A stretch of 64,000 nt of DNA from an uncultured Clostridia bacterium (GTDB lineage: Bacteria; Bacillota; Clostridia; Christensenellales; Borkfalkiaceae). Shown piece after piece: positions 1,051 through 29,294 of this stretch. Each line of letters starts with the position of its first letter. Position 1 is the first letter of the stretch. The notes beneath the pieces were generated by a model. That model worked only from the letters and a program-made list of their open reading frames with translations, was not told the origin of the DNA and ran no database searches. Both the position numbers and the translations under genes were made by a program. The DNA lies in the NCBI GenBank assembly GCA_944328495.1, contig CALVHR010000010.1, positions 1 to 64,000 on the forward strand, given 5' to 3'.

Positions 1051-1062
1051 TCAAAAAATTTT

Positions 1063-1098
1063 AACTGTCAAGTAAAAATGCTTGACAGTTGTTTTTTT
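1063..1098 (+). terminator. Intrinsic terminator of the AraC gene, overlapping the rpsP promoter
   Basis: Perfect 10-bp stem AACTGTCAAG (1063-1072) / CTTGACAGTT (1081-1090), 8-nt loop, then GTTTTTTT. The 3' arm of the stem contains the TTGACA -35 box of rpsP, so one sequence ends one unit and starts the next. Confidence 0.8.
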
Positions 1099-1110
1099 GT
1101 TCGCTATAAT
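1082..1110 (+). promoter_or_regulatory. Sigma-A promoter of the rpsP operon
   Basis: Perfect consensus: TTGACA (1082-1087), 17-bp spacer, TATAAT (1105-1110). As expected for a ribosomal protein operon. Confidence 0.9.
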
Positions 1111-1174
1111 AGAGCGGTAATCGGCAAAAGCCGCAAAAAAAGCAAATTATTTTACCGTAAAAGGAGATATCATC
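1111..1174 (+). promoter_or_regulatory. Structured 5' leader of rpsP
   Basis: The leader can fold as an outer helix CGGTAA (1115-1120) / TTACCG (1152-1157) enclosing a small hairpin CGGC-AAAA-GCCG (1122-1133). The outer helix ends three bases before the Shine-Dalgarno AAGGAG. It may be a translational control site, but I do not recognise it as a named leader family. Confidence 0.35.
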
Positions 1175-1468
1175 ATGGCAGTAAAAATGAGACTGACGAG
1201 ATTGGGTGACAAAAAGAGCCCGTTCTATCGTATTGTCGTAGTAGACGGAAGGAAGGCGCGTGACGGCGAGTACATCGAGAAGATCGGACATTATAATCCC
1301 ACGTCCAATCCCGAAGAGATCGTGATCGATGCGGACAAGGCGAAAGATTGGCTGTCCAAAGGCGTTCAGCCTACGGAAACGGTCAAGACTCTTCTGATCC
1401 GTCAGGGTATTGTGGAAAAGTCGACCAAACTTTCGGCGCCCCGCACGAAGACCCGTAAAAAGAAGTAA
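1175..1468 (+). CDS. rpsP: 30S ribosomal protein S16
   Basis: Small-subunit ribosomal protein S16, 97 residues, normal for the family. The N-terminus [19 protein letters not shown] and the following Y-IVVVD-R-ARDG-YIE-IGHYNP segment are the diagnostic S16 signature. The tail is Lys/Arg-rich (TKTRKKK). The start is fixed by AAAGGAG at 1159-1165. First gene of an rpsP-khpA-rimM operon, the order found in Bacillus and Clostridia. Confidence 0.97.
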
Positions 1469-4126: not shown

Positions 4127-4477
4127 CAAATAGGGAGGAACCGCAGCCGAGCCGTAGGCTTGCGGCGGTGTCGCCCTTTGGTCGCGGAAAATCGCAGGGA
4201 ACAGCTTCCCGAGATTTTCGCGAAGTACAAAATTTTTTGCGCGCGCAAAAATCGCATTTTTTGCAAGCGCACTCAAGTTGCCGAAAACATTCGGCTTTTG
4301 CGGAAAAAGTGAATGCGGCGATCTAAAAAATAAGAGAGCCGTAACGTATCGCCGCAGAGAGAAAACCGAATGATAAGCCGCCGGGGGCGGCGAGCATCGG
4401 GTTTTCTCTAAAAAATCAAGCAAAAGCTCTCATCTCTTTTGAGAGCTTTTGCGCGAAGGAATAGCTAAAGGAGTTTT
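4127..4477. repeat. 351-bp intergenic region with a degenerate composite hairpin element (reverse orientation)
   Basis: No gene fits here. The region is a series of hairpins: GAAAATC..GATTTTC with inner GGGAA/TTCCC (4187-4219); a copy of the long two-hairpin module on the reverse strand (4226-4330, sharing TTGAGTGCGCTT, TGCGATTTT and CGCATTCAC blocks with the copy at about 18.0-18.1 kb); GCCGTAACG (4338-4346), also found at 18215-18223; a hairpin GAGAAAACC/GGTTTTCTC (4359-4408) related to hairpin II of other copies but enlarged by an inner GCCGCC/GGCGGC stem; and an 11-bp hairpin CAAAAGCTCTC/GAGAGCTTTTG (4421-4451). Hairpin I was not found here. No clear promoter for rbgA is visible. Confidence 0.7.
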
Positions 4478-15827: not shown

Positions 15828-16364
15828 ATGCCTGAATTCAGGGGAACAACTATATGTGCCGTTAAAAAGAACGGCAGTACGGCAATTGCCGGAGACGGTC
15901 AGGTCACGATGGGCGAATCCATCGTTTTTAAAAACAGCGCGGTGAAGGTGCGCCGCATTTACGGAGGCAAAGTCGTACTCGGCTTTGCGGGTTCGGTCAG
16001 CGACGCGTTTTCCCTTTCCGAACGTTTTGAGGGCATGCTCAATAAATTTTCGGGCAACCTCATGCGCTCGGCGGTAGAACTCGCGGAACTTTGGCGCAAT
16101 GACAAAATGGTGCGTAAACTCGAAGCCATGATGATCGTTGCCGACAAAGATCAGCTTTTGATGCTCAGCGGCAGCGGCGAGGTCATTGAACCGGACGGCG
16201 GCGTCTGCGCCATCGGCAGCGGCGGCAATTACGCACTCGCGGCGGCGCGCGCGCTCATCCAGGAGACCGATTACTCGGCGGAAGAGATCGCGTATAAGGC
16301 GTTGAAGATCGCCAGCGAGATCTGCGTATTTACAAACGATCATATCACCGTGGAAACGGTGTAA
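15828..16364 (+). CDS. hslV: ATP-dependent protease subunit HslV (ClpQ)
   Basis: Proteolytic core of the HslVU complex. 178 residues; the N-terminal stretch [12 protein letters not shown] shows the active-site threonine (Thr7 before processing), followed by [10 protein letters not shown], a hallmark of the family. RBS GGAGG 8 bp upstream. The 98-bp gap to hslU is filled by a hairpin repeat that begins 5 nt after this stop codon. Confidence 0.96.
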
Positions 16365-16369
16365 AAATG

Positions 16370-16438
16370 TTCACGCTTTTTGTTTTGAGCTGACAAAACG
16401 AAAAGTCGTGAATGAGGGAAAACCCGAACGGTTTTCCC
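16370..16438 (+). repeat. Composite hairpin element, short copy (hairpins I and II) between hslV and hslU
   Basis: Hairpin I: outer stem TTCACG (16370-16375)/CGTGAA (16407-16412), 1-nt bulge T, 11-bp inner stem 16376-16386/16395-16405 with one wobble, loop GAGCTGAC (16387-16394). Hairpin II: GGGAAAACC-CGAAC-GGTTTTCCC (16416-16438). It begins 5 nt after the hslV stop and ends 24 nt before the hslU start. Neither hairpin has a T-tract, so this is not an ordinary terminator; it could affect message stability or the HslV:HslU ratio. Confidence 0.8.
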
Positions 16439-16462
16439 GCAATTGAAAGAGGAGGACTATTT

Positions 16463-17773
16463 ATGAATCATCTGTCTCCGAAACAGATCGTAAACGAATT
16501 GGATAAATATATCATCGGGCAAGACAAGGCGAAACGCGCCGTCGCGATCGCTCTGCGCAACCGTTACCGCCGCAGTCAGCTGTCGGAAGCGGACCGCGAA
16601 GAGATCACGCCCAAAAACATTATTATGAAGGGGCCGACGGGTGTCGGCAAAACGGAGATCGCCCGCAGGCTTGCAAAGCTTGTCAAAGCGCCGTTCATCA
16701 AGGTGGAAGCGACCAAATACACCGAAGTGGGGTATGTCGGCAGGGATGTAGAGAGCATGATCCGCGACTTGGTGGAGTGTTCCATCCGTCTTGTGCGCGA
16801 AGAAAAGATGAAAGAAGTGGCGGTCCGTGCCGAAGGGACGGCGGAAAAGAAGATCGTCGCCGTACTTTCGGAAATGAAAAAGGGCGAGCGCGGAGAAATG
16901 TCGAAGGAAGTTTTCGACGCGAGGCTTTTGGAAGAACTCCGCGCGGGCAAATACAATGATACGCAGATCGAGATCGAAGTGGTGGACGCGCCCAAGAGCA
17001 TGGAGATCGTGCCGGGCGGCGCGGAGATCAACATCGGTTCGATTTTCGGCGACATGCTGCCGAAAAAGAAGAAGCGCCGCAAGATGACCGTAAAGCAGGC
17101 GATGCAGCAGATCATCAACGAAGAGTCGGAAAAACTTATCGATAATGACGCTGTCAATACCGAAGGGCTCGCGCGTGCCGAAGAACAGGGCATTATATTT
17201 ATCGACGAGATCGACAAGATCGCAGGCAAAGCCAATCAGGGCGGGGCGGATGTCTCCCGCGAAGGGGTGCAGCGCGATATCCTGCCCATCGTCGAAGGCT
17301 GTACGGTCATGACCAAGTACGGCGCGGTCAAGACAGACTTCATCCTGTTTATTGCAGCAGGGGCGTTCCACATTTCCAAAGTGGAAGATTTGATTCCCGA
17401 ATTGCAGGGGCGGTTCCCCATCAATGTGGAGCTGGAAAGCCTGACCAAAGAAGATTTTATCAAAATTCTGACCCAGCCGCAGAACGCGATCACGACCCAG
17501 TACGGAAAACTCCTTGCCGTGGACAATATTGACTTACAGTTTACGGAGGATGCCATCGAGGAGATCGCCTATATTTCCGCCGATATGAACGCGACGAGCG
17601 AAGATATCGGCGCGCGCCGTCTGCATACGGTCATGGAATATCTGTTGGAAGATATATCTTTCAATGCAGGCGGGGATTATCCGCAGGTCACGGTCACGAT
17701 CGATAAAAAGTATGTCGACGAGCATTTGGAAAAAATCATCAAAAACCGCGATTTGAAAAAATACGTACTGTGA
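16463..17773 (+). CDS. hslU: HslU (ClpY) ATPase subunit of the HslVU protease
   Basis: AAA+ unfoldase that feeds HslV. 436 residues from the ATG at 16463 (RBS GAGGAGG), giving [20 protein letters not shown]. Walker A GPTGVGKT at 57-64; the inserted I-domain follows at about 105-225; Walker B IIFIDEID with Asp248-Glu249; sensor region [10 protein letters not shown]-terminal tail ...KKYVL typical for docking into HslV. A frame running further upstream would start inside the repeat and is not used. Confidence 0.96.
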
Positions 17774-17778
17774 CGCGG

Positions 17779-17871
17779 TTCACGCTTTTTCTTTCGAGCT
17801 GACGAAAGAAAAAGTCGAGATTTGAGGGCTCTGCCCTCTGCGGCGCGCCTTTTTTAGGGCACACCGAATAT
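17779..17871 (+). repeat. Composite hairpin element, copy after hslU
   Basis: Starts 5 nt after the hslU stop. Hairpin I has a perfect 11-bp inner stem CTTTTTCTTTC (17785-17795)/GAAAGAAAAAG (17804-17814) and loop GAGCTGAC; the right outer arm (CGAGAT) matches the next copy rather than its own left arm TTCACG, as if the two copies had recombined. Hairpin II GAGGGC-TCT-GCCCTC (17824-17838). A hairpin III-like stretch with TTAGGGCACA follows. Confidence 0.75.
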
Positions 17872-18112
17872 TCTCACTTTTCTCGCGCAAAGGCGCTGCG
17901 AAAAGTCGAGATTCTGAGGGCTGCGCCCTCGGCTTGCAATATTTAAGAGCTTTGCACAAATTTGAATTGCAAGCCTTCACCCGCTATTCGGTTGGCTTGC
18001 TTATCAAATCGCGCGCCGCATTCACCCGCTTGAGGTCGCAGGTATGCGACAAATTGAGTGCGCTTATCCAAAATTGCGATTTTGGAACGCGCAGAAATTA
18101 TTTAATAAAAAA
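17872..18112 (+). repeat. Composite hairpin element, long copy with two-hairpin module
   Basis: Hairpin I variant (17872-17912) with outer stem TCTC/GAGA and a degenerate loop; hairpin II GAGGGC-TGC-GCCCTC (17916-17930); hairpin III GGCTTGCAAT (17931-17940)/ATTGCAAGCC (17966-17975); then the long module, with hairpins TCGCA-GGTA-TGCGA and CCAAAAT-TGCG-ATTTTGG and the shared blocks CGCATTCACCCGC, TTGAGTGCGCTT and CGCGCAGAAA. The long module is homologous to 4226-4330 (reverse) and about 29095-29186. Confidence 0.75.
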
Positions 18113-18115
18113 TTG

Positions 18116-18146
18116 AAAAAGCCGAAATCACACTTTTGGCTTTTTC
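18116..18146 (+). terminator. Probable intrinsic terminator upstream of hisS
   Basis: AAAAAGCC (18116-18123) pairs with GGCTTTTT (18138-18145), extended by AAA/TTT inside; a T-run is included in the 3' arm. It probably ends transcripts coming from hslU. Confidence 0.6.
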
Positions 18147-18180
18147 CCCCGATTTGCCGTAGGCTTACGGAAGAGGTGAA

Positions 18181-18298
18181 GTTACGGCATTAGAAATAAG
18201 GGTGCCCTTATATATGCCGTAACGAGGGGAAAACCGTTCGGGTTTCCCCTGAAACTCACGGAAATTTCTTTTGTCAGCTCAAAAGAAATTTCGTGAAC
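18181..18298 (-). repeat. Composite hairpin element, inverted copy upstream of hisS
   Basis: Read on the reverse strand: hairpin I (18298 to 18256) with outer TCACG/CGTGA, 1-nt bulge C, perfect 11-bp inner stem AAATTTCTTTT/AAAAGAAATTT and loop GAGCTGAC; hairpin II AGGGGAAACC-like stem (18225-18249); hairpin III GTTACGGCAT/ATGCCGTAAC (18181-18190 with 18214-18223) enclosing ATAAGGG-TG-CCCTTAT. The stem sequence differs completely from the forward copies but pairing and loop are kept. Confidence 0.78.
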
Positions 18299-18315
18299 AA
18301 ATAGAAGGAGTTTTT

Positions 18316-19575
18316 ATGATTAACATACCCAAAGGTACAAAGGACGTTTTGCCTGCCGAAGCCTATAAATGGCATTTTGTTGAAAACACGGCAAGGCGTG
18401 TCGCGGCGCTTTATAATTTAAAAGAGATCCGTACGCCTGTTTTCGAGCATACCGAGTTGTTTTTGCGCGGTGTGGGCGATACGACGGACATTGTCAACAA
18501 GGAGATGTATACGTTCCTTGACAAGGGCAACCGTTCCATCACGTTAAAGCCCGAGGGTACGGCGGGAGTCGTGCGTTCGTTTATCGAAAACGGGCTTGCG
18601 GGCGGCGTATTGCCTTTGAAGATGTATTATATCACGCCCGTATTCCGTTATGAACGCCCGCAGGCGGGGCGGCTCCGCGAACATCACCAGTTCGGCGTGG
18701 AAATATTCGGCGGGAAGGGCCCCGAAACGGATGCGGAAGTCATCATGCTTGCGCGCGATTACATCGCGGCGCTGGGCGTGGAAGGCGTAGAGCTCAACCT
18801 CAATTCGATCGGCTGCAAACACTGCCGTCCGAAATTCAACGAAGCGCTCAAAGAGTATCTGCGTCCGCACCTTTCCGAGATGTGCCCGACCTGCAATGCG
18901 CGGTTTGAAAAAAATCCGCTGCGCATCCTCGACTGTAAGGAAGAAGTGTGCTCCAAAATCAACGAAAATGCGCCCAAGACCACCGATTTTCTGTGTGATG
19001 AATGCCGTGAGCATTTTGAAAAGCTCAAAGCCATTCTCGATGCCTGCGGCGTAAAATACAAACTCAACCCCAAGCTCGTGCGCGGGTTGGACTATTATTC
19101 CAAAACGGTGTTTGAATTTGTGTCGACGTCCATCGGGGCGCAGGGCACGGTGCTCGGCGGCGGCAGGTATGACACTCTCATCGAAAATTTGGGCGGACCG
19201 CAGGTGCCGGCGGTCGGATTCGGCAGCGGAATTGAGCGCATGTTGCTCGTTTTGGAAAATACAGGCAAACACATTCCCGAGGAGCCTGCTCTCGACGTAT
19301 ATGTTGCGGGCTTGGACGATGCGGGCAGGGCGGCGGCGTTTGCCCTGGCGGACAAGCTGCGCAAGGCAGGCCTTTCCGCAGATACAGACCATGCGGCGCG
19401 TTCGGTCAAGGCGCAGTTCAAATATGCGGGCAAGATCGGCGCACGATTTGTCGTCGTCATCGGTTCCGACGAGCTCGCAAGCGGCAAATATACCATCAAA
19501 AATATGGCGGAATCGACGTCCGAGTCGGTAAATGCCGAAGACGTCGTCGACTTTTTGGTGCATAAAAGCAGATGA
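18316..19575 (+). CDS. hisS: Histidyl-tRNA synthetase
   Basis: Class II aminoacyl-tRNA synthetase, 419 residues from the ATG at 18316 (RBS AGAAGGAG), giving MINIPKGTKDVLP. Motif 2 RYERPQAGRLREHHQFGVE and the histidine-binding GLDYYSKTVFE and GGGRYDTL segments are clear; a C-terminal anticodon-binding domain follows (from about 325). The stop overlaps the next start (ATGA). No T-box leader was recognised in the hairpin-rich upstream gap. Confidence 0.96.
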   Translation: MINIPKGTKDVLPAEAYKWHFVENTARRVAALYNLKEIRTPVFEHTELFLRGVGDTTDIVNKEMYTFLDKGNRSITLKPEGTAGVVRSFIENGLAGGVLPLKMYYITPVFRYERPQAGRLREHHQFGVEIFGGKGPETDAEVIMLARDYIAALGVEGVELNLNSIGCKHCRPKFNEALKEYLRPHLSEMCPTCNARFEKNPLRILDCKEEVCSKINENAPKTTDFLCDECREHFEKLKAILDACGVKYKLNPKLVRGLDYYSKTVFEFVSTSIGAQGTVLGGGRYDTLIENLGGPQVPAVGFGSGIERMLLVLENTGKHIPEEPALDVYVAGLDDAGRAAAFALADKLRKAGLSADTDHAARSVKAQFKYAGKIGARFVVVIGSDELASGKYTIKNMAESTSESVNAEDVVDFLVHKSR

Positions 19576-20072
19576 AAGAGATCGCGACCGTCGTAAAGAC
19601 GGCGGGCAAAATCGCCGTCGTACAGATCGAAAAACATCCCGAATGCGAAGGATGCAAGATATGCGCGTTCAAAGACGGCAAGTCCCGCGTAAAAGTCAAG
19701 GCACTCAACAGCGCGAAAGCCCGAGCGGGCGAGCGCGTCATCGTGCAGGCGGAAAAGGACAATCGATTGCTTGCATCGTTCATTGTCTATATTATCCCCG
19801 TGCTTTTGGGCGGTATCGGCGTGTTGATCGGGGCACTGTGCTTTGAACGGGAGTTCTGGGCGCCCGTACTGTTTTTTGCAGGACTTGCGCTCGGGTTCGG
19901 AGCGGTATTCGCATGCGATCGGCTCTTTTCAAAAACGCGCGGGTTCGGAATGGAAGTTGTCGAAATTCTGCATACTGACGAAAAGGAAACGTCCCTTGAA
20001 CGGGATGCTGCATTGTTTTCGGACAATCAAAAATTATCGGAGGAGGAAAACAAATATGGTAGAAAAATTTGA
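19572..20072 (+). CDS. RseC/MucC-family membrane protein
   Basis: 166 residues. An N-terminal Cys cluster (HPECEGCKIC), two adjacent membrane helices (about 66-86 and 91-112) and a polar C-terminal tail match the RseC/MucC family (SoxR-reducing-system and Rnf-associated proteins). Role probably in membrane redox, but no rnf genes are nearby. Coupled to hisS by a 4-base overlap, and its end overlaps the thioredoxin start by 17 bp, so redox coupling with thioredoxin is a reasonable inference. Confidence 0.75.
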   Translation: MKEIATVVKTAGKIAVVQIEKHPECEGCKICAFKDGKSRVKVKALNSAKARAGERVIVQAEKDNRLLASFIVYIIPVLLGGIGVLIGALCFEREFWAPVLFFAGLALGFGAVFACDRLFSKTRGFGMEVVEILHTDEKETSLERDAALFSDNQKLSEEENKYGRKI

Positions 20073-20370
20073 TGCTGCTGCATTTGCGGCGGCGATGGCG
20101 GAGAAAAAGACGCTCGTTGTGGATTTTTATGCCGATTGGTGCGGCCCTTGCCGTATGCTTTCGCCCGTAATGGAAGCGCTGAGCGAGGAAATGAGCGGCA
20201 AAGCGACGTTTGTCAAGATCAATGTCGATGACAATCCCGACCTTGCTCGCGAATACTCGATCATGAGCATTCCGTGCGTGATGGTATTTAAAGACGGCGG
20301 GCTCGCGGGTAAAAATATCGGCTTTGCTCCCAAAGATGCCATGAAAGAATTTGTAGAAAAGATTATCTGA
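20056..20370 (+). CDS. trxA: Thioredoxin
   Basis: 104 residues, a standard-size thioredoxin. Active site WCGPC at 28-32, cis-Pro in SIPCVMVFKDG (here preceded by Ile, and followed by an extra Cys), Gly-rich end. The ATG at 20056 follows AGGAGG (20041-20046); a longer upstream frame is not needed. Last gene of hisS-rseC-trx, followed by a terminator. Confidence 0.95.
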   Translation: MVEKFDAAAFAAAMAEKKTLVVDFYADWCGPCRMLSPVMEALSEEMSGKATFVKINVDDNPDLAREYSIMSIPCVMVFKDGGLAGKNIGFAPKDAMKEFVEKII

Positions 20371-20388
20371 TCGAAAGATCGCAAAATT

Positions 20389-20427
20389 AAAGCGACAGGG
20401 CGCGAAATATCGTCCTGCCGCTTTTTG
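20389..20427 (+). terminator. Terminator after thioredoxin
   Basis: AAAGCG-A-CAGG pairs with CCTG-C-CGCTTT (one mismatch), followed by TTTTTG. Confidence 0.75.
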
Positions 20428-20550
20428 TTGCGTGCGGGTTCGCCGAAAAAGGTATTTGCAAAGATTTATGTCCGCTGCATGAAAAGCCGTTGTCGCTTTT
20501 GTGAAAGAGTGCTTTTTTCAAAAAGATTTTTTCTGGCGGCCGTGTATTTA

Positions 20551-20579
20551 TTGACAGTTTCGCTCGGTTTTGCTATATT
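20551..20579 (+). promoter_or_regulatory. Sigma-A promoter of the secreted beta-helix protein gene
   Basis: TTGACA (20551-20556), 17-bp spacer, TATATT (20574-20579). Gives a leader of about 60 nt. Confidence 0.82.
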
Positions 20580-20647
20580 GTTCATACCAAATTGCGCAAT
20601 CAAGATCGATATAAAAATTTGAATCATTTACAAAGGAGAACGGAATC

Positions 20648-22468
20648 ATGATTTTACGGAAACGGTTGAAAGCGATTTTTGCGTTTTTTGCCGCGGCGTG
20701 TTTTTTGTGCGTTTGTCTGAGCTGTGCCGCGATTTTGCAGGCGGGTGCCGCAGAAACAGACTACGCGGAAACGGGTATTGATTTGCTCACTTCGCCGCCG
20801 ACTGCGGAAACGGTATACAAAGCCGGGGCGGGCACGGTTACATACAAACCCGCAGCGGACGGCGCGGCGCAGATCGTTTTGCAGGACGCGGAGCTGTATG
20901 CGGGAACGAAAGTGACATATTCGCCGGGAAATTGGACGTACACGGCGCTTGCCGCGCAGGGTGACGTAGAGTTGGTGTTGCAGGGTGAAAGCACAATTTA
21001 TCTCGCGCCGAGCGGCATCAATAAGGGGCTGTTGTTCTATGACAGCAATCTGACGGTGAAGGGAGAAGGTTCGGTCTGGATCGGGTATAAAGAAGAAACG
21101 TCCAGGAACCGGAATGCATATCCGATGGATGTGCTTGAAAAATCGGGCGCGGAGACAGATGAAAGCGGTAACTTTACGCTGGAGAGCGGCACGCTTACTT
21201 TGAATGCCGTAGGTTCGACCAAAAGAGGATGCCTGACGGTCAATCATAAGATCGAGATCCGCGGCGGCGAACTGAAAACGAACGGTCAGATGGCGGGCGT
21301 GTATTCGACGTATGGAGATATCGAAATAACGGGCGGCAAGTGCACGATCGAAAATTTCAATGAATACGGTCTGTTTGCGCGGCAGGGTGACGTGACGATC
21401 GGCGGCGATGCGCAGGTTTCGGTTTCCAGTACTGCCCGCGATTCCGGCATCGGGATCTGCGGCGGCAATATCGAAACCGAGGACGGAAACGTTTACATAC
21501 GGGGCGGAAAGATCTCCGTCGACGTGCTTTATCTGGGTATCTTTACGCAGCGCATGGAAAACGGCGGAAATATCGAAATTTCGGGCGGCGAGCTGGATAT
21601 AAACGTTCCGAGCACGAGCAAGCTGGGCGTCGGGATCTACACGCGGGGCGAGGGCGGTTCGATTGCCGTAAGCGGCGGAACGGTGAACGTTTCGGCGAGC
21701 GTTACCCGAAATACCGAAGGCGAACAGGCAGTCGGCATTTACAGCGACGGAGCGGTGACGGTTACGGGCGGTTCGGTGCGCGCGGGAGCGAGTTGCGGCA
21801 TCGGCGAGGCGGTCGGCATTTCCTGCCAGGGCGAATTTACGATCGACGGCGGCGAAGCGGTGTTCTTCGGCGATTCGAGAGCGTTGGACAAAGCGCCCGT
21901 CGTTTCGGATAATTTGATCGTTTCGGCGGCGTCCGATGTGCAGGGCACGCAGAAAACGGAATACGATCCCGAAAACTACGGCGATTATAAATATGTCGCG
22001 ATAAAAGTACCCGCAACGGTAACGGGTGTCACAGTCACTCCCGAAAGCGCTTCGGTGGAAGTCGGAAAAACGCAGACTTTCCGCGCGGAAGTGGCGGGGA
22101 CGGGCGAGTTCGGCACGGGCGTTGTCTGGAGCGTGAGCGGAGCAAACAGCGCGGGTACTTCCATCGACGAAAACGGAACCCTGACGGTCGCGGCGGACGA
22201 AACGGCGCAGACGCTCACGGTCATCGCCGCTTCGGAATTTGACGAGACAAAGAGCGCGAGCGCGACCGTCACCGTAACGAAGACGGATGCGGGGACGGAT
22301 GGCGGAAATACGTCGGATGAGGACGGCAACACGGATGACGGAACGACGGTCAAAGCGGGTTGCAGCGGCAATATGGGCACGGGGATTGCCGTGGCGGCGG
22401 TTGTGCTGGCAGGTACGGCGGCAGTTTTTTGCGTGACGAAACGCGGCTTACAAAGACGCAATAAATAA
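20648..22468 (+). CDS. Secreted beta-helix / Big2-domain surface protein with C-terminal membrane anchor
   Basis: 606 residues. N-terminal signal peptide (RKRLKAIF then a hydrophobic core to about 32, cleavage near AGA-AET). Residues about 110-430 repeat short units of the type GDIEITGGKCTI, GNIEISGGELDI, GSIAVSGGTVNV, typical of right-handed beta-helix surface proteins. Residues about 455-540 form a bacterial Ig-like (Big2) domain (VTGVTVTPESASVEVGKTQT). After an Asp/Gly/Thr linker, a C-terminal helix (about 580-598) and RRNK charge anchor it; no LPxTG motif is seen. Probably a cell-surface adhesin or wall-associated protein; ligand unknown. Monocistronic. Confidence 0.72.
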   Translation: MILRKRLKAIFAFFAAACFLCVCLSCAAILQAGAAETDYAETGIDLLTSPPTAETVYKAGAGTVTYKPAADGAAQIVLQDAELYAGTKVTYSPGNWTYTALAAQGDVELVLQGESTIYLAPSGINKGLLFYDSNLTVKGEGSVWIGYKEETSRNRNAYPMDVLEKSGAETDESGNFTLESGTLTLNAVGSTKRGCLTVNHKIEIRGGELKTNGQMAGVYSTYGDIEITGGKCTIENFNEYGLFARQGDVTIGGDAQVSVSSTARDSGIGICGGNIETEDGNVYIRGGKISVDVLYLGIFTQRMENGGNIEISGGELDINVPSTSKLGVGIYTRGEGGSIAVSGGTVNVSASVTRNTEGEQAVGIYSDGAVTVTGGSVRAGASCGIGEAVGISCQGEFTIDGGEAVFFGDSRALDKAPVVSDNLIVSAASDVQGTQKTEYDPENYGDYKYVAIKVPATVTGVTVTPESASVEVGKTQTFRAEVAGTGEFGTGVVWSVSGANSAGTSIDENGTLTVAADETAQTLTVIAASEFDETKSASATVTVTKTDAGTDGGNTSDEDGNTDDGTTVKAGCSGNMGTGIAVAAVVLAGTAAVFCVTKRGLQRRNK

Positions 22469-22492
22469 TGTAAGAAGACGCACGGAATATTG

Positions 22493-22535
22493 ATATGCAC
22501 CCCAAAATTCGGAAACTTTTGGGGTGCATATTTTT
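22493..22535 (+). terminator. Terminator of the surface protein gene
   Basis: 15-bp stem ATATGCACCCCAAAA / TTTTGGGGTGCATAT, 9-nt loop, T-run after it. Confidence 0.9.
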
Positions 22536-22630
22536 ATGGAAAGAAAGATGTAATTGAATGCATAGTATGTTAAGACACGGAAACATGGAAAATATTGAAG
22601 TTGCTGCAAGAAACGGCTTCGGAAATATTT

Positions 22631-22671
22631 GAGCGGCGCGCGCAAAAAAATTTTCGCGCGCCGCTCTTTTT
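22631..22671 (+). terminator. Second terminator, directly upstream of the glyA promoter
   Basis: 12-bp stem GAGCGGCGCGCG / CGCGCGCCGCTC followed by TTTTT. The -35 box of glyA starts two bases later, so it insulates glyA from upstream transcription. Confidence 0.8.
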
Positions 22672-22672
22672 C

Positions 22673-22701
22673 TTGAAAAATGCCGAAATTTGCGCTATAA
22701 T
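22673..22701 (+). promoter_or_regulatory. Sigma-A promoter of glyA
   Basis: TTGAAA (22673-22678), 17-bp spacer, TATAAT (22696-22701). Confidence 0.82.
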
Positions 22702-22736
22702 AAAAAAGTGAATAAAATTCTTACGGAGATAAAACG

Positions 22737-23987
22737 ATGATCGATCTTACGACAGTGAAAAACGCCGACAAAGAAGTGTATGACGCAATGAAGCTCGAAC
22801 TTGACCGCCAGCGCGGGAACATCGAGCTGATCGCGAGCGAGAACTTTGTTTCCCCCGCGGTGATGGCGGCGGTGGGTTCGCACCTGACCAACAAATACGC
22901 CGAGGGGCTGCCCGGCAAGCGTTATTACGGCGGCTGTCAGTACGTCGACATCGTCGAAAATCTCGCGATCGAGCGCTGCAAACAGCTGTTCGGCTGCGAT
23001 CATGTCAATGTACAGCCGCACAGCGGCGCGCAGGCAAACACCGCGGTGTACTTCGCGCTTTTGAATCCCGGCGATACCATTCTCGGCATGAACCTTTCCC
23101 ATGGCGGACACCTCACGCACGGTTCTCCCGTCAACATTTCGGGGAAATATTTCAAGATCGTGCCGTACGGCGTTTCCAAAGAGGATGAGCGCATCGATTA
23201 CGATGCATTGGAACAGCTCGCGATCGAAAACAAACCCAAAATGATCGTAGCCGGAGCGAGCGCATATCCGCGCATCATCGATTTTCCCCGTCTGCGCGCG
23301 ATCGCGGACAAAGTCGGGGCATATCTCATGGTCGACATCGCGCACATCGCGGGGCTGGTCGCGGCGGGACTGCATCCTTCGCCCGTGCCGTACGCGGATA
23401 TCGTGACGACGACTACGCACAAGACCTTGCGCGGCCCGCGCGGCGGCGTGATCATGTGCAAAGAGCAGTACGCCAAAGCGATCGACAAGGCAGTGTTCCC
23501 CGGCATGCAGGGCGGCCCGCTCATGCACGTCATTGCGGGCAAAGCGGTCGCGTTCAAGGAAGCGCTTTCGGACGAATTCAAAGAATACCAGAAACAGGTC
23601 GTCAAAAATGCCGCGGCGATGGCGGACGAATTCAAGAAATGCGGCGTGCGTCTCGTTTCGGGCGGCACGGACAACCACCTGATGCTCGTCGACCTTCGCG
23701 ACAAGAACATGACGGGCAAAGAGCTGGAAAAAATGCTGGACGAAGTGAACATCACGGTCAACAAGAACACCATCCCGTTCGAGGAGACCTCACCGTTCAT
23801 TACGAGCGGCATCCGCATCGGCACGCCGAGCATTACCACGCGCGGATTTAAGGAAGAGGATGCGCGCAAGGTCGCACAGCTCATTTCCAAGATCATTGCC
23901 GAAAAGGAAGGGGCGTTCGATGCTGTGCGCGCGGAAGTCAAAAAGCTTTGCGAAAAATATCCGCTGTACGCAAACGATATTATGTAA
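22737..23987 (+). CDS. glyA: Serine hydroxymethyltransferase
   Basis: PLP enzyme that converts serine and tetrahydrofolate to glycine and methylene-THF. 416 residues, the usual length. [26 protein letters not shown] and the PLP-lysine motif [14 protein letters not shown] (Lys229) are intact. RBS CGGAG. Its product methylene-THF is the methyl donor for TrmFO encoded earlier in the window. Single-gene unit. Confidence 0.98.
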
Positions 23988-24085
23988 GATAAGAATAATT
24001 TGACGAAATAAAACGCGCGCATGAGATCATCGGGCAAGATTCCGTTTTGCATCGAAAAAATCGCCGCGTATTCTTTTCATAGCGA

Positions 24086-24114
24086 TTGACAGCGCGCTAT
24101 GTTTGTATTATAAT
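24086..24114 (+). promoter_or_regulatory. Sigma-A promoter of the FMN riboswitch-ribU unit
   Basis: Perfect consensus TTGACA (24086-24091), 17-bp spacer, TATAAT (24109-24114). Confidence 0.9.
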
Positions 24115-24130
24115 AGGAGTAATCAAAAAA

Positions 24131-24247
24131 CGATTCTTTGGGGCGGGGTGAAATTCCCCACCGGCAGTGAAAGTCTGCGAAAGGCGCGAGCCTCCGAACG
24201 GGTGCAATTCCCGTACCGACGGTACAGTCCGGAAAGGAAAAGAATGT
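24131..24247 (+). promoter_or_regulatory. FMN riboswitch (RFN element)
   Basis: All landmark blocks are present in order: closing helix ATTCTTT/AAAGAAT, GGGGCGGGGTGAAATTCCCC, ACCGGC-GT, AGCC-CCGAAC, GGTGCAATTCC, ACCGACGGTA and AGTCCGGA. An intrinsic terminator follows at 24305-24330, so FMN should lower expression of the riboflavin transporter gene by premature termination. Confidence 0.96.
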
Positions 24248-24304
24248 TTTTGGAATTCACCCGCGCGGGAAAAATTGCAGCGCGCCGAACGATTTCAAAA
24301 AAGC

Positions 24305-24334
24305 GCCCCGTTCTATCGAACGGGGCTTTTCTTT
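24305..24334 (+). terminator. Regulatory terminator of the FMN riboswitch
   Basis: GCCCCGTTC-TATC-GAACGGGGC followed by TTTTC, 37 bp upstream of the ribU ATG; probably the riboswitch expression platform. Confidence 0.85.
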
Positions 24335-24366
24335 GCCCCTTGAAAATATTTTTTTCGAGGTGTTTT

Positions 24367-25032
24367 ATGAAGGAAGAACGATTGCAGGAAGTTCCCGCAG
24401 AGGAGAACAAACCTGTGAGCACGGCGAAAAAGAGGTTTTTCTCTGCTTCCACGCTCGCAAAAATCGGAATGTTTGCCGCTCTGGCCGCAGTCTTGCAGCT
24501 TATACGCATTCCCATGCCCGTGCTTTTTCCGCCGTGGCTGGAACTCAATTTTGCAGATATCCCCGCACTGATCGGAACATTTGCGCTCGGACCCGTATCG
24601 GGATCGATCATTGTCGTGATCAAAATCTGTATTAAACTGATATTGCAAGGTACCGCTTCTGCCTTTACGGGCGATCTTTCCGACTTGATTTGCGGCCTGA
24701 CTCTTGTGGTTCCCGCCGGTCTCATTTATAAATATAACCGTACTTTCCGCGGTGCGCTCATCGCTCTTTTGGTCGGCACTCTTTGCTCCACGGGTGTTTC
24801 TGTTTTGTCCAACCGTTTTATTATTGTACCCGCATATGCCAAAGCTTTCGGAGGGATCGATGCGATTGCGGGCATGGTGACATCACTGTTCCCCTCGGTA
24901 ACGAGTGAAAACTTCTATGCTTACTATTTGCCGCTTTCCGTAGTTCCGTTCAATCTTTTGCGTTGCATTATTGCTTCGGCGGTCACGCTTTTGTTGTATA
25001 AGAGAATTTCTCGCCTTTTAAACAAGTTTTAA
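24367..25032 (+). CDS. ribU: Riboflavin ECF transporter S component RibU
   Basis: Substrate-binding membrane subunit that takes up riboflavin together with the shared ECF energizing module (not in this window). 221 residues from the ATG at 24367; six hydrophobic segments from about residue 30. The first helix and loop (LAKIGMFAALAAVLQLI, LNFADIPALIGTFALGP, KICIKLIL) match RibU-type S components. The FMN riboswitch upstream confirms the substrate class. A long leader before the ATG holds the riboswitch. Confidence 0.93.
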   Translation: MKEERLQEVPAEENKPVSTAKKRFFSASTLAKIGMFAALAAVLQLIRIPMPVLFPPWLELNFADIPALIGTFALGPVSGSIIVVIKICIKLILQGTASAFTGDLSDLICGLTLVVPAGLIYKYNRTFRGALIALLVGTLCSTGVSVLSNRFIIVPAYAKAFGGIDAIAGMVTSLFPSVTSENFYAYYLPLSVVPFNLLRCIIASAVTLLLYKRISRLLNKF

Positions 25033-25061
25033 TTGCAAAATCGCGCTCGATATACTATAAT
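25033..25061 (+). promoter_or_regulatory. Sigma-A promoter of tsaE
   Basis: TTGCAA (25033-25038) begins on the base after the ribU stop codon; 17-bp spacer; TATAAT (25056-25061). Transcription should start near 25068, inside the terminator hairpin that follows. Confidence 0.82.
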
Positions 25062-25096
25062 AGAATCGGTCTTGTTCGGGCCGATTCTCTTTTTTT
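25062..25096 (+). terminator. ribU terminator overlapping the tsaE start point
   Basis: AGAATCGG (25062-25069) / CCGATTCT (25081-25088), 11-nt loop, then C and seven T. Only transcripts coming from ribU contain the full stem; those from the tsaE promoter lose its 5' arm. Confidence 0.72.
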
Positions 25097-25106
25097 GGAG
25101 AGGGAA

Positions 25107-25502
25107 ATGATCTCAGACAGCGAAAAAAACACCATTCAAATTGCAAAAGAATACGCAAAAACTCTTGTCCCGGGCGATGTCGTTTTGCTCGAAGGAGAGA
25201 TGGGCGCGGGAAAAACGGTGTTCGTCAAGGGCATCGCGGAGGCGCTCGGCATTCCCGACGAGATCACCAGTCCCACCTACGCGTATATGAACGATTATGG
25301 CGGAAAACTCTACCATTATGACTGTTACCGGCTCACGAGCGGGGCGCAGGCGGAGGCGCTGGGGCTTTGCGATTATTTTTACGGGAAGGGTATTTGCGTC
25401 ATTGAATGGGCGGAAAACATCGCCGAATTGCTTCCCGAGCATTGCAAACGGGTCCGCATCGTGAAGCGCGGCGAAAATGAAAGGGAGATCGTATGCGACT
25501 GA
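25107..25502 (+). CDS. tsaE: tRNA t6A synthesis ATPase TsaE
   Basis: ATPase partner of TsaB-TsaD in making N6-threonylcarbamoyl-adenosine 37 of tRNA. 131 residues from the ATG at 25107 (RBS GGAGAGGG). Walker A LEGEMGAGKT (Gly30-Thr37), then SPTYAYMNDY and YHYDCYRL, and W-E in CVIEWAENI. Overlaps tsaB by 10 bp in the common tsaE-tsaB-rimI order; tsaD is not in the window. Confidence 0.95.
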   Translation: MISDSEKNTIQIAKEYAKTLVPGDVVLLEGEMGAGKTVFVKGIAEALGIPDEITSPTYAYMNDYGGKLYHYDCYRLTSGAQAEALGLCDYFYGKGICVIEWAENIAELLPEHCKRVRIVKRGENEREIVCD

Positions 25503-26101
25503 ATAATTTTCTTGCCATCGATACGAGCGGCGAACATCTGAGCGTGATCGCCTGCAAAGACGGAAAGGCGGAGACGGTGTTTGAGGAAAACTGTGCCATG
25601 CAGCACTCCGTTCGCCTGATGGACGCAGTGGACGAAGCGCTTTCACGCGCACATCTTTCCCCCGAAGACTGCGATTTTTTCTGTGCGGTCACGGGCCCGG
25701 GCTCGTTTACGGGCATCCGTATCGGAATTTCGGCGGCGAAGGGGTTTTGCGCGGCGGCAGGAAAGCCTGCGCTCGGCATAACATCTTTCGAAACGCTGGC
25801 ATATAATACAGAGACAAAGGCGCTCGCCGCGATCCCTGCGGGCCGCGGCAATTTTTATGTATGCGGGTTTGCTGCGGATAAGAGTATTTTGCTTTCCCCG
25901 CAAATTGTCGGTGCCGACGAACTTGCCCGTTTGGCGGGTGAATATACTGTCTGCGCCGCGACGCCTCTGTCTGTTCCGTATTTAAAAGCCGATCCCGCGG
26001 CGGGGCTATTGCGTGCGATTTGCGCTAAGAGTGAAAAGGATTTGGGCGATTTGGCGGCATTTTATTTAAAAAAGAGCCAGGCGGAAGAGAACGCGCATTG
26101 A
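25493..26101 (+). CDS. tsaB: tRNA t6A synthesis protein TsaB
   Basis: Scaffold subunit of the threonylcarbamoyl-transferase complex. 202 residues, ASKHA fold. FLAIDTSGEHLSV at the N-terminus, then MQHSVRLMDAVDEAL and the signature VTGPGSFTGIRIGISAAKG. The C-terminal half is short, as usual for Gram-positive TsaB. Coupled to tsaE. Confidence 0.95.
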   Translation: MRLNNFLAIDTSGEHLSVIACKDGKAETVFEENCAMQHSVRLMDAVDEALSRAHLSPEDCDFFCAVTGPGSFTGIRIGISAAKGFCAAAGKPALGITSFETLAYNTETKALAAIPAGRGNFYVCGFAADKSILLSPQIVGADELARLAGEYTVCAATPLSVPYLKADPAAGLLRAICAKSEKDLGDLAAFYLKKSQAEENAH

Positions 26102-26135
26102 AAAGACGGTGCGATAAAGATGGGGTAGAGCGGGT

Positions 26136-26582
26136 ATGACATACAGAAAATGGGTGTACGAAGACATATTGCAAATTGCGGAGCTGGAAAAAGAGTGCTT
26201 TTCGGATCCTTGGACGTACCGCATGCTTGCCGATTCTTTTTTCAATGAAAGCGTGCGCACCGTCGCTGCCGAAGAAGACGGCAGGATCGTCGGATATGGT
26301 TTTATCACGGCGGCAGGAGAAGACGCGGATCTTGCGAACATTGCGGTAAGAGAGGCGTATCGCCGCAAGGGGATTGCGGGCAAGATCCTTGACGCGCTTG
26401 AAGAGGAAGCCGTGAGCCTGGGCGTCGAAAGGATGTTTTTGGAAGTGCGCGTGTCCAATGCGGCGGCAATGCTTTTATATTTGAAACACGGGTATGTCGG
26501 GCGCTACGTGCGGCCGCGCTATTACGGCGACGGCGAGGATGCGCTCATCATGGAAAAGCCGCTCAAAAAGCGGCAGGAATAA
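26136..26582 (+). CDS. rimI: Ribosomal protein S18-alanine N-acetyltransferase RimI
   Basis: GNAT acetyltransferase, 148 residues. Acetyl-CoA loop: NIAVREAYRRKGIAGKIL, matching the R/Q-x-x-G-x-G/A motif; C-terminal VRVSNAAAMLLYLKHGYVGRYVRPRYY is typical of RimI. Its position right after tsaB supports the assignment over other GNAT enzymes. RBS is weak. Confidence 0.9.
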   Translation: MTYRKWVYEDILQIAELEKECFSDPWTYRMLADSFFNESVRTVAAEEDGRIVGYGFITAAGEDADLANIAVREAYRRKGIAGKILDALEEEAVSLGVERMFLEVRVSNAAAMLLYLKHGYVGRYVRPRYYGDGEDALIMEKPLKKRQE

Positions 26583-27317
26583 TTGCGGGAGGGGACAAAG
26601 ATCGTCATCGGAGGAAAGGAAATTTCGCTCTTGCAGGAAGGGGAAGGCGAGCCGCTCGTCATGCTGCACGGTTACCTCTCTTGCAAAGAAAGTTTTTACC
26701 ATCAGATACGGTTTTTTTCGCAATATTATCGCGTGACGGCTTTCGATTTCGTCGGTATGGGCAAGAGCTCGCAGCTTTGCGAGCCTTGGTCCGTGGACGA
26801 TTACTGCGCGCATACACTGGAAATTTTCGATGCGCTCGGAATCGGCAAATGCCGCATCCTTGCGCATTCCTTCGGCGGGCGAGTCGCGCTCAAATTGCTT
26901 GCAAATTACCCGCAGCGTTTTTCCCGCGCCCTTTTAACGGGCTGTGCGGGCATACCGCCGCGGCGCGGTTTGCGGTATGCGTTGCGGGTAAAATGGTACC
27001 GCATTGTCAAAAAAGCGGCGCCGAAATTTGCCGAACGGCACTTCGGGTCCAAGGAGTTCCGCACCCTGTCTCCCGTCATGCGCGAGAGTTTTAAAAAAAT
27101 CGTCAACGAGGATCTGACTCCGTGCCTTGCGCGCATTGAAGTTCCCGTGCTGTACGTTTTCGGGGATCGGGACACCGCCACGCCGCCGTATATGGCGCGC
27201 ATTCTTTCGGCGGGAACGCGCGGGAGCGGTCTGATATGGATGAAGGATTGCACTCATTTTTGTTTCTGCGAACGGCCGCAGGAATTTAACGCCGTTGCGC
27301 GCGAGTTTTTCCGCTGA
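26583..27317 (+). CDS. Alpha/beta-hydrolase-fold protein
   Basis: 244 residues. Oxyanion loop HGYLS, nucleophile elbow AHSFGGR (Ser96), acid Asp197 in FGDRDTATP and His225 in KDCTHFCF form a complete triad. Substrate unknown; related to MhpC/BioH-type esterases. The start is odd: the only usual start codon is TTG at 26583, directly after the rimI stop, while a strong GGGAGGGG (26587-26594) stands six bases before an ATC codon (26601). Either TTG is used with the AGGAA of the rimI end, or an unusual start is. It follows the tsaE-tsaB-rimI cluster. Confidence 0.85.
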   Translation: MREGTKIVIGGKEISLLQEGEGEPLVMLHGYLSCKESFYHQIRFFSQYYRVTAFDFVGMGKSSQLCEPWSVDDYCAHTLEIFDALGIGKCRILAHSFGGRVALKLLANYPQRFSRALLTGCAGIPPRRGLRYALRVKWYRIVKKAAPKFAERHFGSKEFRTLSPVMRESFKKIVNEDLTPCLARIEVPVLYVFGDRDTATPPYMARILSAGTRGSGLIWMKDCTHFCFCERPQEFNAVAREFFR

Positions 27318-27367
27318 TACAATACGGAAAAAAGCGCGCCGTACATTCTTAGGAAAAAGGAGATCGG

Positions 27368-28987
27368 ATGTTTACACTGACCGCAATCATTGAATATGTG
27401 ATCGTATCGCTCGCGTGCGCACTGTTGTTCGCGCTCTGTTCGTTCACCCTTTTGGGTGCGCTGCAACAGGCGGGTTACGGCGGAAAACGTTATCTTGCAT
27501 GGCTTTTCCGCAAAGGGAACATGGCGCGTTCGCGCTTTACTTTGCTTGCTTTTCTGATCGCTCTGTCTTCACTCGTGCTCGGATTGTGCTTTTCGTTTGC
27601 TGGAAAGTGGGCGGCGTACATATCGATCGTACCCGTGCTTTTGTTTTGTGCGGTCTGGTGTGCGGCGGAAAGGAATGCCCTGAAAGTGCCGCTTTCGCCT
27701 ACGGCGCGCGCAAAACGCGTGTACGTTCTGCATATTTTAGTGCTGTTTGTCGCGGCATTTTTGATCGTTCTCGCGGCGAACGCTATCGCGTATTACTCCA
27801 AGCATGAATTGGTCGGGCATCTGCGCTATATTCTGATCGCACTTCTGCCTCTCTGCGAGCCGATGCTCCTGCTCGCGGCGAATGCTTTGGAAAAGCCTTT
27901 CTCTTCGCATAAAAACAAAAAATATCTCGCGGCCGCACGCGAAAAACTGCACGGCACAAAATGCGTAAAGATCGGCATTACGGGCAGCTGCGGCAAGACC
28001 AGCGTCAAAAATTTTCTGGCAGTCATTCTTTCCGAAAAATACAAAGTGCTTGCGACGCCCGAATCGTACAATACGCCTTTGGGCATCGCGAAGGCGATCG
28101 AAAACGCGGACCTGAACGCATATGATTTCTTTGTTGCGGAGATGGGGGCGCGCCACACGGGAGATATTTCCGAGCTTTGCGAGCTTGTTCGGCCCGATCA
28201 TTGCATCGTGACGGGAATCTGCCCGCAGCATTTGGAATCTTTCGGGACAATCGAAAATGTGATCGCCGCCAAAGGCGAAATATTAAAAGGTACGAAGGCG
28301 GGCGGTTTCGCCGTCATCGGCATGGACGAAAATACCGCAAAGCTCGATCCGAAAGGAGCGGGGCTTGTCAAGGTGGGAGTGGGCGAGCATGGCGAATGCG
28401 GCGCGATCGAGATAAAATGCACTGCGCACGGCACCGATTTCAAACTTGCGCTCGGGATTTTCCAAACGGACGCGCACACCAAACTTTTGGGAGCGCACAG
28501 CGCGCAGAACATTGCCTTGGCCGCGGCAATGGCGTTCAAACTCGGGCTTACCAAAGAAGAGATCGTGCGCGGCATCGCAAAGATCGATTATATCCCGCAT
28601 CGCTTACAGCCCTTCGAAGCGAACGGCGTCACCGTTTTGGACGACGCTTACAACTCGAATGTACTCGGCGCGGCGGCGGCTGTGGAAACGCTTCGGCTAT
28701 TTGAAGGCAGAAAATTTGTAATTACACCCGGACTTGTCGAGTTGGGCGTCCTGGAAGAGAGTGAAAATATGGCGCTCGGCGAACGGCTCGTTGGATTGGA
28801 CTGCATCATTTTAGTGGGTGCAACGCTTATCACCGCCGTCAAAAAGGGGTATCTCGCGGCGGGCGGCGACCCCGAAAAGCTTACGATCGTCCCCACGCTG
28901 GATAAAGCGCAGGAACTTCTCGAAACGCAATTGCAGGCGGGAGATACCGTGCTGTTTTTGAACGATCTTCCGGATATATATAATTAA
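27368..28987 (+). CDS. murF: MurF-type Mur ligase with N-terminal membrane domain
   Basis: UDP-MurNAc-tripeptide:D-Ala-D-Ala ligase family. 539 residues: the first 200 contain about five hydrophobic helices (7-27, 58-78, 83-102, 118-138, 149-168), then the Mur ligase core with P-loop GSCGKTS (206-212), TPESYNTPLG, VAEMGARHTGDI, CPQHLESFG, HSAQNIALAAAMA and DDAYNSN. The following gene is D-Ala-D-Ala ligase, which makes the substrate. Soluble MurF is about 450 residues without helices; this one is membrane-anchored, a layout seen in some Clostridia. Alternatively a related Mur-like ligase. RBS AAAGGAG. Confidence 0.85.
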   Translation: MFTLTAIIEYVIVSLACALLFALCSFTLLGALQQAGYGGKRYLAWLFRKGNMARSRFTLLAFLIALSSLVLGLCFSFAGKWAAYISIVPVLLFCAVWCAAERNALKVPLSPTARAKRVYVLHILVLFVAAFLIVLAANAIAYYSKHELVGHLRYILIALLPLCEPMLLLAANALEKPFSSHKNKKYLAAAREKLHGTKCVKIGITGSCGKTSVKNFLAVILSEKYKVLATPESYNTPLGIAKAIENADLNAYDFFVAEMGARHTGDISELCELVRPDHCIVTGICPQHLESFGTIENVIAAKGEILKGTKAGGFAVIGMDENTAKLDPKGAGLVKVGVGEHGECGAIEIKCTAHGTDFKLALGIFQTDAHTKLLGAHSAQNIALAAAMAFKLGLTKEEIVRGIAKIDYIPHRLQPFEANGVTVLDDAYNSNVLGAAAAVETLRLFEGRKFVITPGLVELGVLEESENMALGERLVGLDCIILVGATLITAVKKGYLAAGGDPEKLTIVPTLDKAQELLETQLQAGDTVLFLNDLPDIYN

Positions 28988-29294
28988 AAAGGATTCACGC
29001 TTTTTCTTTCAAGCCGATGAAAGAAAAAGCCGTGCGTTTAAGGGCCCTGCTCTCTATCCGCGATTGATAAGGGCACAAACAGAATTATAATCGCGGATAT
29101 TCACCCGCCGAGGCGCTCACGCACAAACAGGGTGCGCTGCCGCAAAAGCGCGGTTTTGCTTCGCGCAGAAAAAGATTTGATTCCCGCGATTTGACGCAGT
29201 CTGCATGTTTAAGAAAAAAGCCGTGCGTTTTGGCACGACAATAAAAATACTTTTGAAGCACCAAAGCAAACACTATTTGCGGAGGTGTTTTTTT
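28988..29294. other. 307-bp gap between murF and ddl
   Basis: Filled mainly by the most complete copy of the composite hairpin element (28994-29190). After it come about 100 bp of AT-rich sequence with the ddl ribosome binding site GGAGGTG (29281-29287). TTGACG at 29192 could be a -35 box, but no matching -10 is seen. Confidence 0.7.
28994..29190 (+). repeat. Composite hairpin element, most complete copy (murF-ddl gap)
   Basis: Begins 6 nt after the murF stop. Hairpin I: CACG/CGTG outer stem, 1-nt bulge C, perfect 11-bp inner stem 29000-29010/29019-29029, loop AAGCCGAT. Hairpin II: AGGGC-CCT-GCTCT (29041-29053). Hairpin III: ATCCGCGATT (29056-29065)/AATCGCGGAT (29089-29098) enclosing ATAAGGGCACAAA. 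Long module: TTCACCCGC, GCG-CTCA-CGC, GGTGCGCT, GCAAAA-GCGCGG-TTTTGC and CGCGCAGAAA. Confidence 0.8.

Follow-up and report, generated by a model that had tools for sequence, protein, structure and literature searches.

REPINs are inverted doublets of REP sequences that form hairpins with compensatory changes (PMC3116915), and the REPs of Escherichia coli are described as needing a stem bulge for the activity of TnpA-REP (PMC8266576). Here, we describe a real and abundant family of palindromic and mosaic DNA repeats that look mobile, are related in kind to REPIN and BIME sequences, and were not described in the papers that our literature search found. We studied it from the first 64,000 nt of contig CALVHR010000010.1 (assembly GCA_944328495.1) of an uncultured Clostridia bacterium, a stretch that we refer to as the window. 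A sequence-only reading had reported five intergenic hairpins with one layout in this DNA, and we found that this hairpin, HpA, is the 5' end, or head, of a unit of 170 to 230 nt with five or six stems.

Integron attC sites work as folded single strands of DNA in which some bases are extrahelical and the stem sequence is free. The present unit differs in its long conserved loops, and neither cassette exchange nor association with an integrase was seen at the ten loci from other genera and the hslVU locus that we inspected. The bcr1 repeat reportedly has features of a mobile element, going by the title alone of one cited reference. Like other structured repeats of the Bacillus cereus group, bcr1 resembles our unit in being dispersed, in its length of 100 to 200 nt, and in having a predicted fold (PMC2267715); in this comparison, which is by description only, the host group differs and a multi-hairpin, tail-to-tail mosaic is absent from the part of the bcr1 description cited here. 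In IS200/IS605 elements and their internally deleted derivatives, hairpins that contain an unpaired base are likewise described as functioning in single-stranded form (PMC8266576). However, we saw no Y1 gene in or beside our units, whose inverted doublets end in HpA heads and not in a left and a right hairpin. With REP, REPIN, and BIME sequences, as portrayed in the passages cited, the family shares intergenic palindromes, inverted doublets, mosaics, clusters, a bulge, and compensatory changes (PMC3116915, PMC8266576, PMC3733652, and PMC2817692). In contrast to our unit with its several stems, a REP is one stem-loop of 20 to 40 nt, and the inverted pairs of the present family are only tail to tail in the three genomes in which we counted them.

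A dispersed hairpin is the head of a multi-hairpin unit

The five hairpins of the sequence-only reading are present, the copy at 17872 in an imperfect form that we read by eye, and HpA begins 5 nt after the preceding stop codon at 16370 and 17779 and 6 nt after it at 28994. The loop sequence GAGCTGAC occurs 6 times in the window, compared to 0.88 occurrences expected and a maximum of 4 in 100 shuffles. Genome-wide, the pattern TTCACG-N11-GAGCTGAC with up to 2 mismatches gave 40 raw matches, compared to 7 for a reversed control, and reading of the 2.12-Mb genome showed approximately 20 TTCAC-stem-GAGCTGAC heads. The layout of loop and stem proposed earlier needed only refinement, in that the loop is better given as AGCTGA (or a GCTG core), with a closing pair of G-C or A-T that makes the inner stem 12 bp instead of 11 bp in most perfect copies. 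Of the perfect hairpins with a TTCAC-like foot, 131 are distinct; among these, the loop is AGCTGA in 61 and GCTG in 23, and the bulge has a length of 1 nt in 116.

When the copies were aligned together with their downstream DNA, the rest of the unit was seen. HpA has an outer stem TTCACR/YGTGA, one bulged base, an inner stem of 11 to 12 bp, and the loop AGCTGA; it is followed by HpB (GAGGG...CCCTC, or a longer arm), HpC (a stem that varies freely, with an inner GGGCAC), HpD (enclosed by a CACC/GGTG stem), and HpE (loop AAGTGTGATT or relatives), and after HpE there is an AT-rich tail. The unit folds compactly, and two units placed tail to tail form a doublet of approximately 400 nt that is bounded on each side by an HpA. 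Thus, the earlier picture of a covarying family was sound and was incomplete, since it captured one hairpin of the five or six.

We built a covariance model, R1, from 10 hand-picked units of the source genome (172 positions, 46 pairs, and six helices); because of this choice of seeds, its matches lean to the type of the seed units. The search with this model showed a dispersed family with a single layout and many further copies, both in the same genome and in relatives. A comparison with Rfam, which had also been proposed, gave no family for the units at the gathering threshold and only subthreshold matches in positions 16300 to 18310.

The stems covary and keep strict Watson-Crick pairing

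Pairing was analyzed in an alignment of the best 150 of 165 matches, which hold 145 distinct units. The covariation score of these units was 0.611, compared to 0.165 for shuffles and at most 0.147 for slid versions, and the covariation suggested from a handful of copies was thus upheld on the larger alignment. Changes on both sides were found for 45 of the 46 pairs, with 1,598 two-sided cells compared to 51 one-sided cells, and the 5' arm of HpA takes 75 different forms across the 145 units. One column is a mismatch in one type of HpA, with T.C in 44 of 144 units; outside this column, 129 of 145 units lack any non-Watson-Crick pair in HpA, and the HpA inner stem has 5 G.T and 4 A.C pairs in 1,570 cells. 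In the core covarying stems, which we define as the HpA inner stem, HpC, the HpE outer stem, and four covarying HpE inner pairs, we counted 18 G.T and 14 A.C pairs in 3,990 cells; omission of the other three HpE inner pairs removes 1 G.T and 25 A.C cells, with the A.C cells all coming from one column pair. For all 33 covarying pairs, the counts were 38 G.T and 24 A.C in 4,693 cells.

One explanation for this near-absence of intermediates is arm-to-arm template switching, in which the palindromes would persist because one arm serves as the template for the other at the replication fork. Double changes would then arise in one step, mismatches would vanish, and the fold would need no function. 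Intrastrand template switching is described as fixing stems and keeping the loop, with loop inversions being rare (PMC8794818). One of the 131 perfect hairpins (locus L035, position 1895, minus strand) has an inverted loop, GTCTGCTT, with the bulge at its usual place, which fits this process and is possibly a template-switch inversion. However, under arm copying, mismatches should disappear and loops should be able to vary, whereas the units have conserved loops, the bulge, the T.C mismatch, and the unpaired GGGCAC and TTCACC, and locus L042 retains a badly paired, chimeric HpA. Template switching also does not account for the dispersal of the units or the geometry of their doublets, and we consider it rather unlikely as the explanation of the family.

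RNA stems tolerate G.U pairs, whereas DNA stems give G.T no preference over A.C. As an RNA control, we used RNase P, in which the covarying pairs had 28 G.T (6.8%) and 0 A.C in 413 cells for 18 sequences of the same genus and 79 G.T (7.6%) and 19 A.C in 1,039 cells for 30 sequences that included other families. A flavin mononucleotide (FMN) riboswitch control, for which 29 of 30 loci were used, had 12 G.T and 1 A.C in 895 cells; its covarying pairs had 3 and 1, respectively, in 261 cells, a sample too small for comparison, so RNase P serves as the main control. A tRNA control was not used, since only 9 tRNAs lie in the loci. The unit alignment was fitted to the structure of the model and those of RNase P and FMN were made by MAFFT and RNAalifold, so the steps behind these counts are not identical. 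Because G.T is no more common than A.C in the core stems, unlike G.U in RNase P, the fold of the unit is most likely kept as DNA, either through folded single strands or because one arm is copied from the other. The sequence-only reading had left open whether selection on the folded form or a copying process preserves it; we agree with that pair of options, and the scarcity of G.U relative to RNase P of the same genomes favors a fold that matters as DNA. For this reason, the mapping of RNA 3' ends that it had suggested would not be decisive.

These counts also bear on the idea that the units are a structured RNA family, either a 3' untranslated region element or a small RNA, that was spread by duplication and is selected as RNA. 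Strong covariation, compact folds, and the many heads located shortly past stop codons (counted below) are what such a family would show. Against this stand the core-stem G.T frequency and the lack of an Rfam match, as well as the occurrence of units in both orientations relative to genes and even between hslV and hslU, the absence of any match from two of 37 same-genus genomes, and the presence of only one or two matches in three more; we find an RNA family improbable. The more specific candidates of an RNA gene or a riboswitch were rejected on the lack of an Rfam match and on the pairing statistics.

Units are abundant in one genus and vary in presence between its members

R1 gave 45 matches in the 2.1-Mb source genome, including a few that overlap or are weak. 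In a search of 61 related genomes, with up to 43 candidates scored per genome, 36 genomes had matches, including 35 of 37 same-genus genomes (the source genome included). At least 40 matches were found in 15 same-genus genomes, and at least 43 in 9 of these. At the other extreme, G002 and G005 had no match, G004 had one, and G014 and G033 had two each. In an order-wide sample, with 8 candidates scored in each genome, at least 24 of 297 genomes matched R1, and these belong to three genera of the same family and to three further families with one genus each. A search with one pattern returned 16 named stretches, all from metagenome-assembled genomes of uncultured Clostridia, several of them labeled chicken. 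One exact pattern had 0 matches in viral contigs, and blastn found no match to one unit in phages or to one doublet in plasmids.

Orthologous sites can be occupied or free. Around hslU, R1 units were found in 12 of 20 same-genus loci, the source locus included; by eye, L184 has a broken unit and L192 an isolated HpA, and the other six loci have none. The gap between hslV and hslU holds a unit in 3 of 20 same-genus genomes and none in 17; G000 carries a unit there, and G003 carries a larger array. In addition, for 6 of 9 unit sites of G012, both flanks are present in the relative G014 and R1 matched nothing in the DNA that they enclose, and one of the two R1 matches of G014 lies at another place (L254). 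The unit-free G014 gap at the L206 site has a lone perfect hairpin, which could be a remnant of a unit. Two side observations come from the region 3' of hslU. L184 and L190 have a second, unrelated-looking palindromic repeat (around GCCGATTTTGC) inside HpA, as seen by eye in these two genomes, and at L187 of G004, the genome with one unit match, the gap is long and full of short GAAAAAGCAGTTGTC-type repeats.

The units are also mosaic. We found four-gamete combinations between A and C (8), A and E (35), and C and E (13). At seven arrays with both flanks orthologous between G008 and G012, the position is common and the content is mostly replaced, so that stem changes could not be polarized; one paired change was found in the right HpA of L328/L345, and it could also be a conversion from another unit. 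One or two truncated HpA heads of 13 to 29 nt directly precede a complete head at L225, L206, L184, and L034 (contig C9), as if copying had begun, halted, and restarted. Read from sequence, the poorly paired chimeric HpA of L042, the truncated heads (contig C9, L206, and L225), and the tandem copies point to probable recombination between units.

Units often pair tail to tail and lie close to genes

Units occur singly, in tandem, or tail to tail. We counted junctions for 143 units from three genomes, namely, 41 of the 45 from the source genome (four weak or overlapping matches were omitted), 47 from G008, and 55 from G012. Among 65 junctions of up to 60 nt, 36 are tail to tail, all with an AT-rich spacer of 21 to 25 nt, 29 are in the same direction, and none is head to head; three of the same-direction junctions have negative gap lengths, owing to overlapping matches in nested copies. 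Heads therefore face outward in the counted arrays. Two arrangements were seen in addition: tandem units with a period of approximately 282 nt, a similar spacer included (L087, positions 641 to 1644), and, between the two units of a wide G012 doublet, a 75-amino-acid open reading frame (ORF) that by eye resembles a small helix-turn-helix protein and not a transposase (L366, positions 1001 to 1228, plus strand).

The 36 tail-to-tail junctions are inverted doublets of the REPIN type. The head of the unit is TTCACR and not a GTAG or CGTC tag: within 10 nt before the 143 heads, GTAG, CTAC, CGTC, and GACG occur 1, 3, 1, and 2 times, respectively, and after the tails they occur 2, 0, 1, and 0 times, compared to approximately 3.9 expected for each. 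We do not file the family as REPINs, because the tag, the size, and a linked Y1 transposase (RAYT) were all tested and none agreed.

The stop codon of a long ORF lies no more than 60 nt upstream of 42 of 79 heads, 28 of these at 0 to 9 nt; 13 heads precede a start codon, 9 of these at 16 to 21 nt, just 5' of the Shine-Dalgarno sequence; and 24 have no stop or start within 60 nt. Since tight gene spacing alone could give this proximity, we do not claim a target preference. The heads that directly follow stop codons would suit intrinsic terminators or transcription insulators. However, there are 0 terminator-like sites in positions 16300 to 18400, compared to 2.9 in shuffles, no T-tract was seen after the units of the window, and the units between hslV and hslU in these same-genus genomes (G000 and G003) do not fit a terminator; we therefore concur with the earlier statement that the HpA copies are not plain terminators and regard either role as extremely improbable.

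A further alternative is that the units are recombination sites read as folded single-stranded DNA, analogous to attC. Strict pairing as DNA, one extrahelical base, arrays of nonidentical units, and positions right after stop codons would match what is generally known of attC sites, but the flanking genes examined (partly by eye) are housekeeping genes rather than cassettes and the conserved loops are long, which makes this identity highly unlikely. At the ten loci from other genera, we found no shared neighbor gene, with ORFs read by eye and no family search; by eye, the neighbors resemble hslU, groEL, a tyrosine recombinase, and others.

A mobile-like DNA element as the probable explanation

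On balance, the units are probably an interspersed DNA element that is non-autonomous and resembles a REPIN or BIME in the way it works but is much larger. The units are dispersed, they are present or absent between congeners, their doublets share one geometry, they are mosaic, and their stems change on both sides with strict Watson-Crick pairing. In the mechanism we propose, the element would be copied or moved while its strand is single and folded, as could occur on the lagging strand; the bulge and the conserved loops would be read by a trans-acting enzyme; stem letters would be free to change provided that pairing is kept; and recombination or tandem duplication between copies could give rise to the mosaics and arrays. 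We favor recognition of folded single-stranded DNA, possibly aided by arm copying. A more specific version, which we hold only tentatively and consider doubtful as stated, is that the working form is a multi-hairpin single DNA strand, a doublet of approximately 400 nt, made of two units with five hairpins each, whose bulge and conserved loops are read by an enzyme other than a Y1 (HUH) transposase and in which both arms are rewritten together, so that a DNA and not an RNA would mimic RNA covariation.

Several results weigh against a mobile element kept as folded DNA. No enzyme was found, and Y1_Tnp, present in 27 of 61 genomes, does not track unit number: G002 and G005 have 5 and 3 Y1_Tnp matches, respectively, and no units, and G001, G003, G009, G026, and G032 have at least 41 to 43 units and no Y1, the latter absence being weak evidence because these are draft genomes. 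In 30 Y1 loci, with flanks of up to 1.5 kb (some ending at contig ends), we found no unit and no HpA-like hairpin, and a Y1 transposase was rejected as the mover on these counts and loci. No target-site duplication was identified at the unit-free G014 sites, where intergenic DNA is too diverged between species for junctions to be read. Strict pairing is also predicted by template switching, at least as that process is set out in the part of the source cited (PMC8794818). In addition, over all 46 pairs, A.C (183) exceeds G.T (67) in 6,556 cells. This excess is due to four column pairs, one in the HpA foot (49) and the others in B, D, and E (37, 47, and 25, respectively), which have the appearance of irregularities that are conserved or of alternative pairing next to the bulge; they may instead be wobble on the opposite strand. 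Finally, the P values of the comparison between units and RNase P are descriptive only, because the cells are not independent.

Units and neighboring genes in the window

The positions of the units in the window are given in Table 1. The list of copies in the sequence-only reading held for its five members and lacked one, the unit at 4239, in which HpA is unusual (arm CAAAAGCTCTCA) and HpB is long.

Table 1. Units and associated features in the window
Feature	Positions	Strand	Remarks
Full unit (HpA, long HpB, HpC, HpD, HpE)	4239..4457	-	R1, 77.9 bits; directly 5' of the ORF starting at 4478
Unit cut off after second hairpin: HpA (16370-16411) and HpB (GGGAAAACC/GGTTTTCCC)	16370..16439	+	R1, 41.1 bits
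Full unit, HpC loop interrupted by nested unit	17779..18092	+	Starts 5 nt past hslU stop
Nested partial unit: divergent HpA, HpB, HpC, start of D region	17871..18009	+	Limits by eye, from sequence comparison
AT-rich spacer (22 nt) of tail-to-tail doublet	18093..18114		
Full unit, second type (HpE outer stem GAAA/TTTC)	18115..18297	-	R1, 152 bits
Full unit	28994..29166	+	R1, 157.5 bits; 6 nt past stop of Mur ligase ORF 27368-28987

The truncated unit lies between hslV (stop codon at 16362 to 16364) and hslU. The nested unit, whose HpA is the 17872 copy of the earlier reading, sits inside the HpC loop of the 17779 unit, of which contig C11 has an uninterrupted near-copy; R1 matches over this pair run from 17779 to 17937 and from 17951 to 18092, as well as from 17871 to 18092. 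The head of the second-type unit is just 5' of the Shine-Dalgarno sequence of hisS, and the last unit precedes a D-Ala-D-Ala ligase ORF, in a gap whose ortholog in G012 also has units. According to Pfam, the flanking genes encode a proteasome-type subunit (hslV by position), an AAA ATPase (hslU), histidyl-tRNA synthetase (hisS), a Mur ligase, and a D-Ala-D-Ala ligase. The window also contains an FMN riboswitch (RF00050; 24130 to 24248, plus strand; 101.2 bits).

Implications

Covariation is widely held to be the strongest sign of a functional RNA. In the present family, the core stems point to DNA even though 45 of 46 pairs covary, and families of this kind could pass for RNA genes in covariation screens. 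A simple discriminator of DNA folds from RNA folds is the ratio of G.T to A.C, set against the ratio for RNase P in that genome. For the genus of uncultured gut Clostridia studied here, the finding means that many of its gene gaps are occupied by this family.

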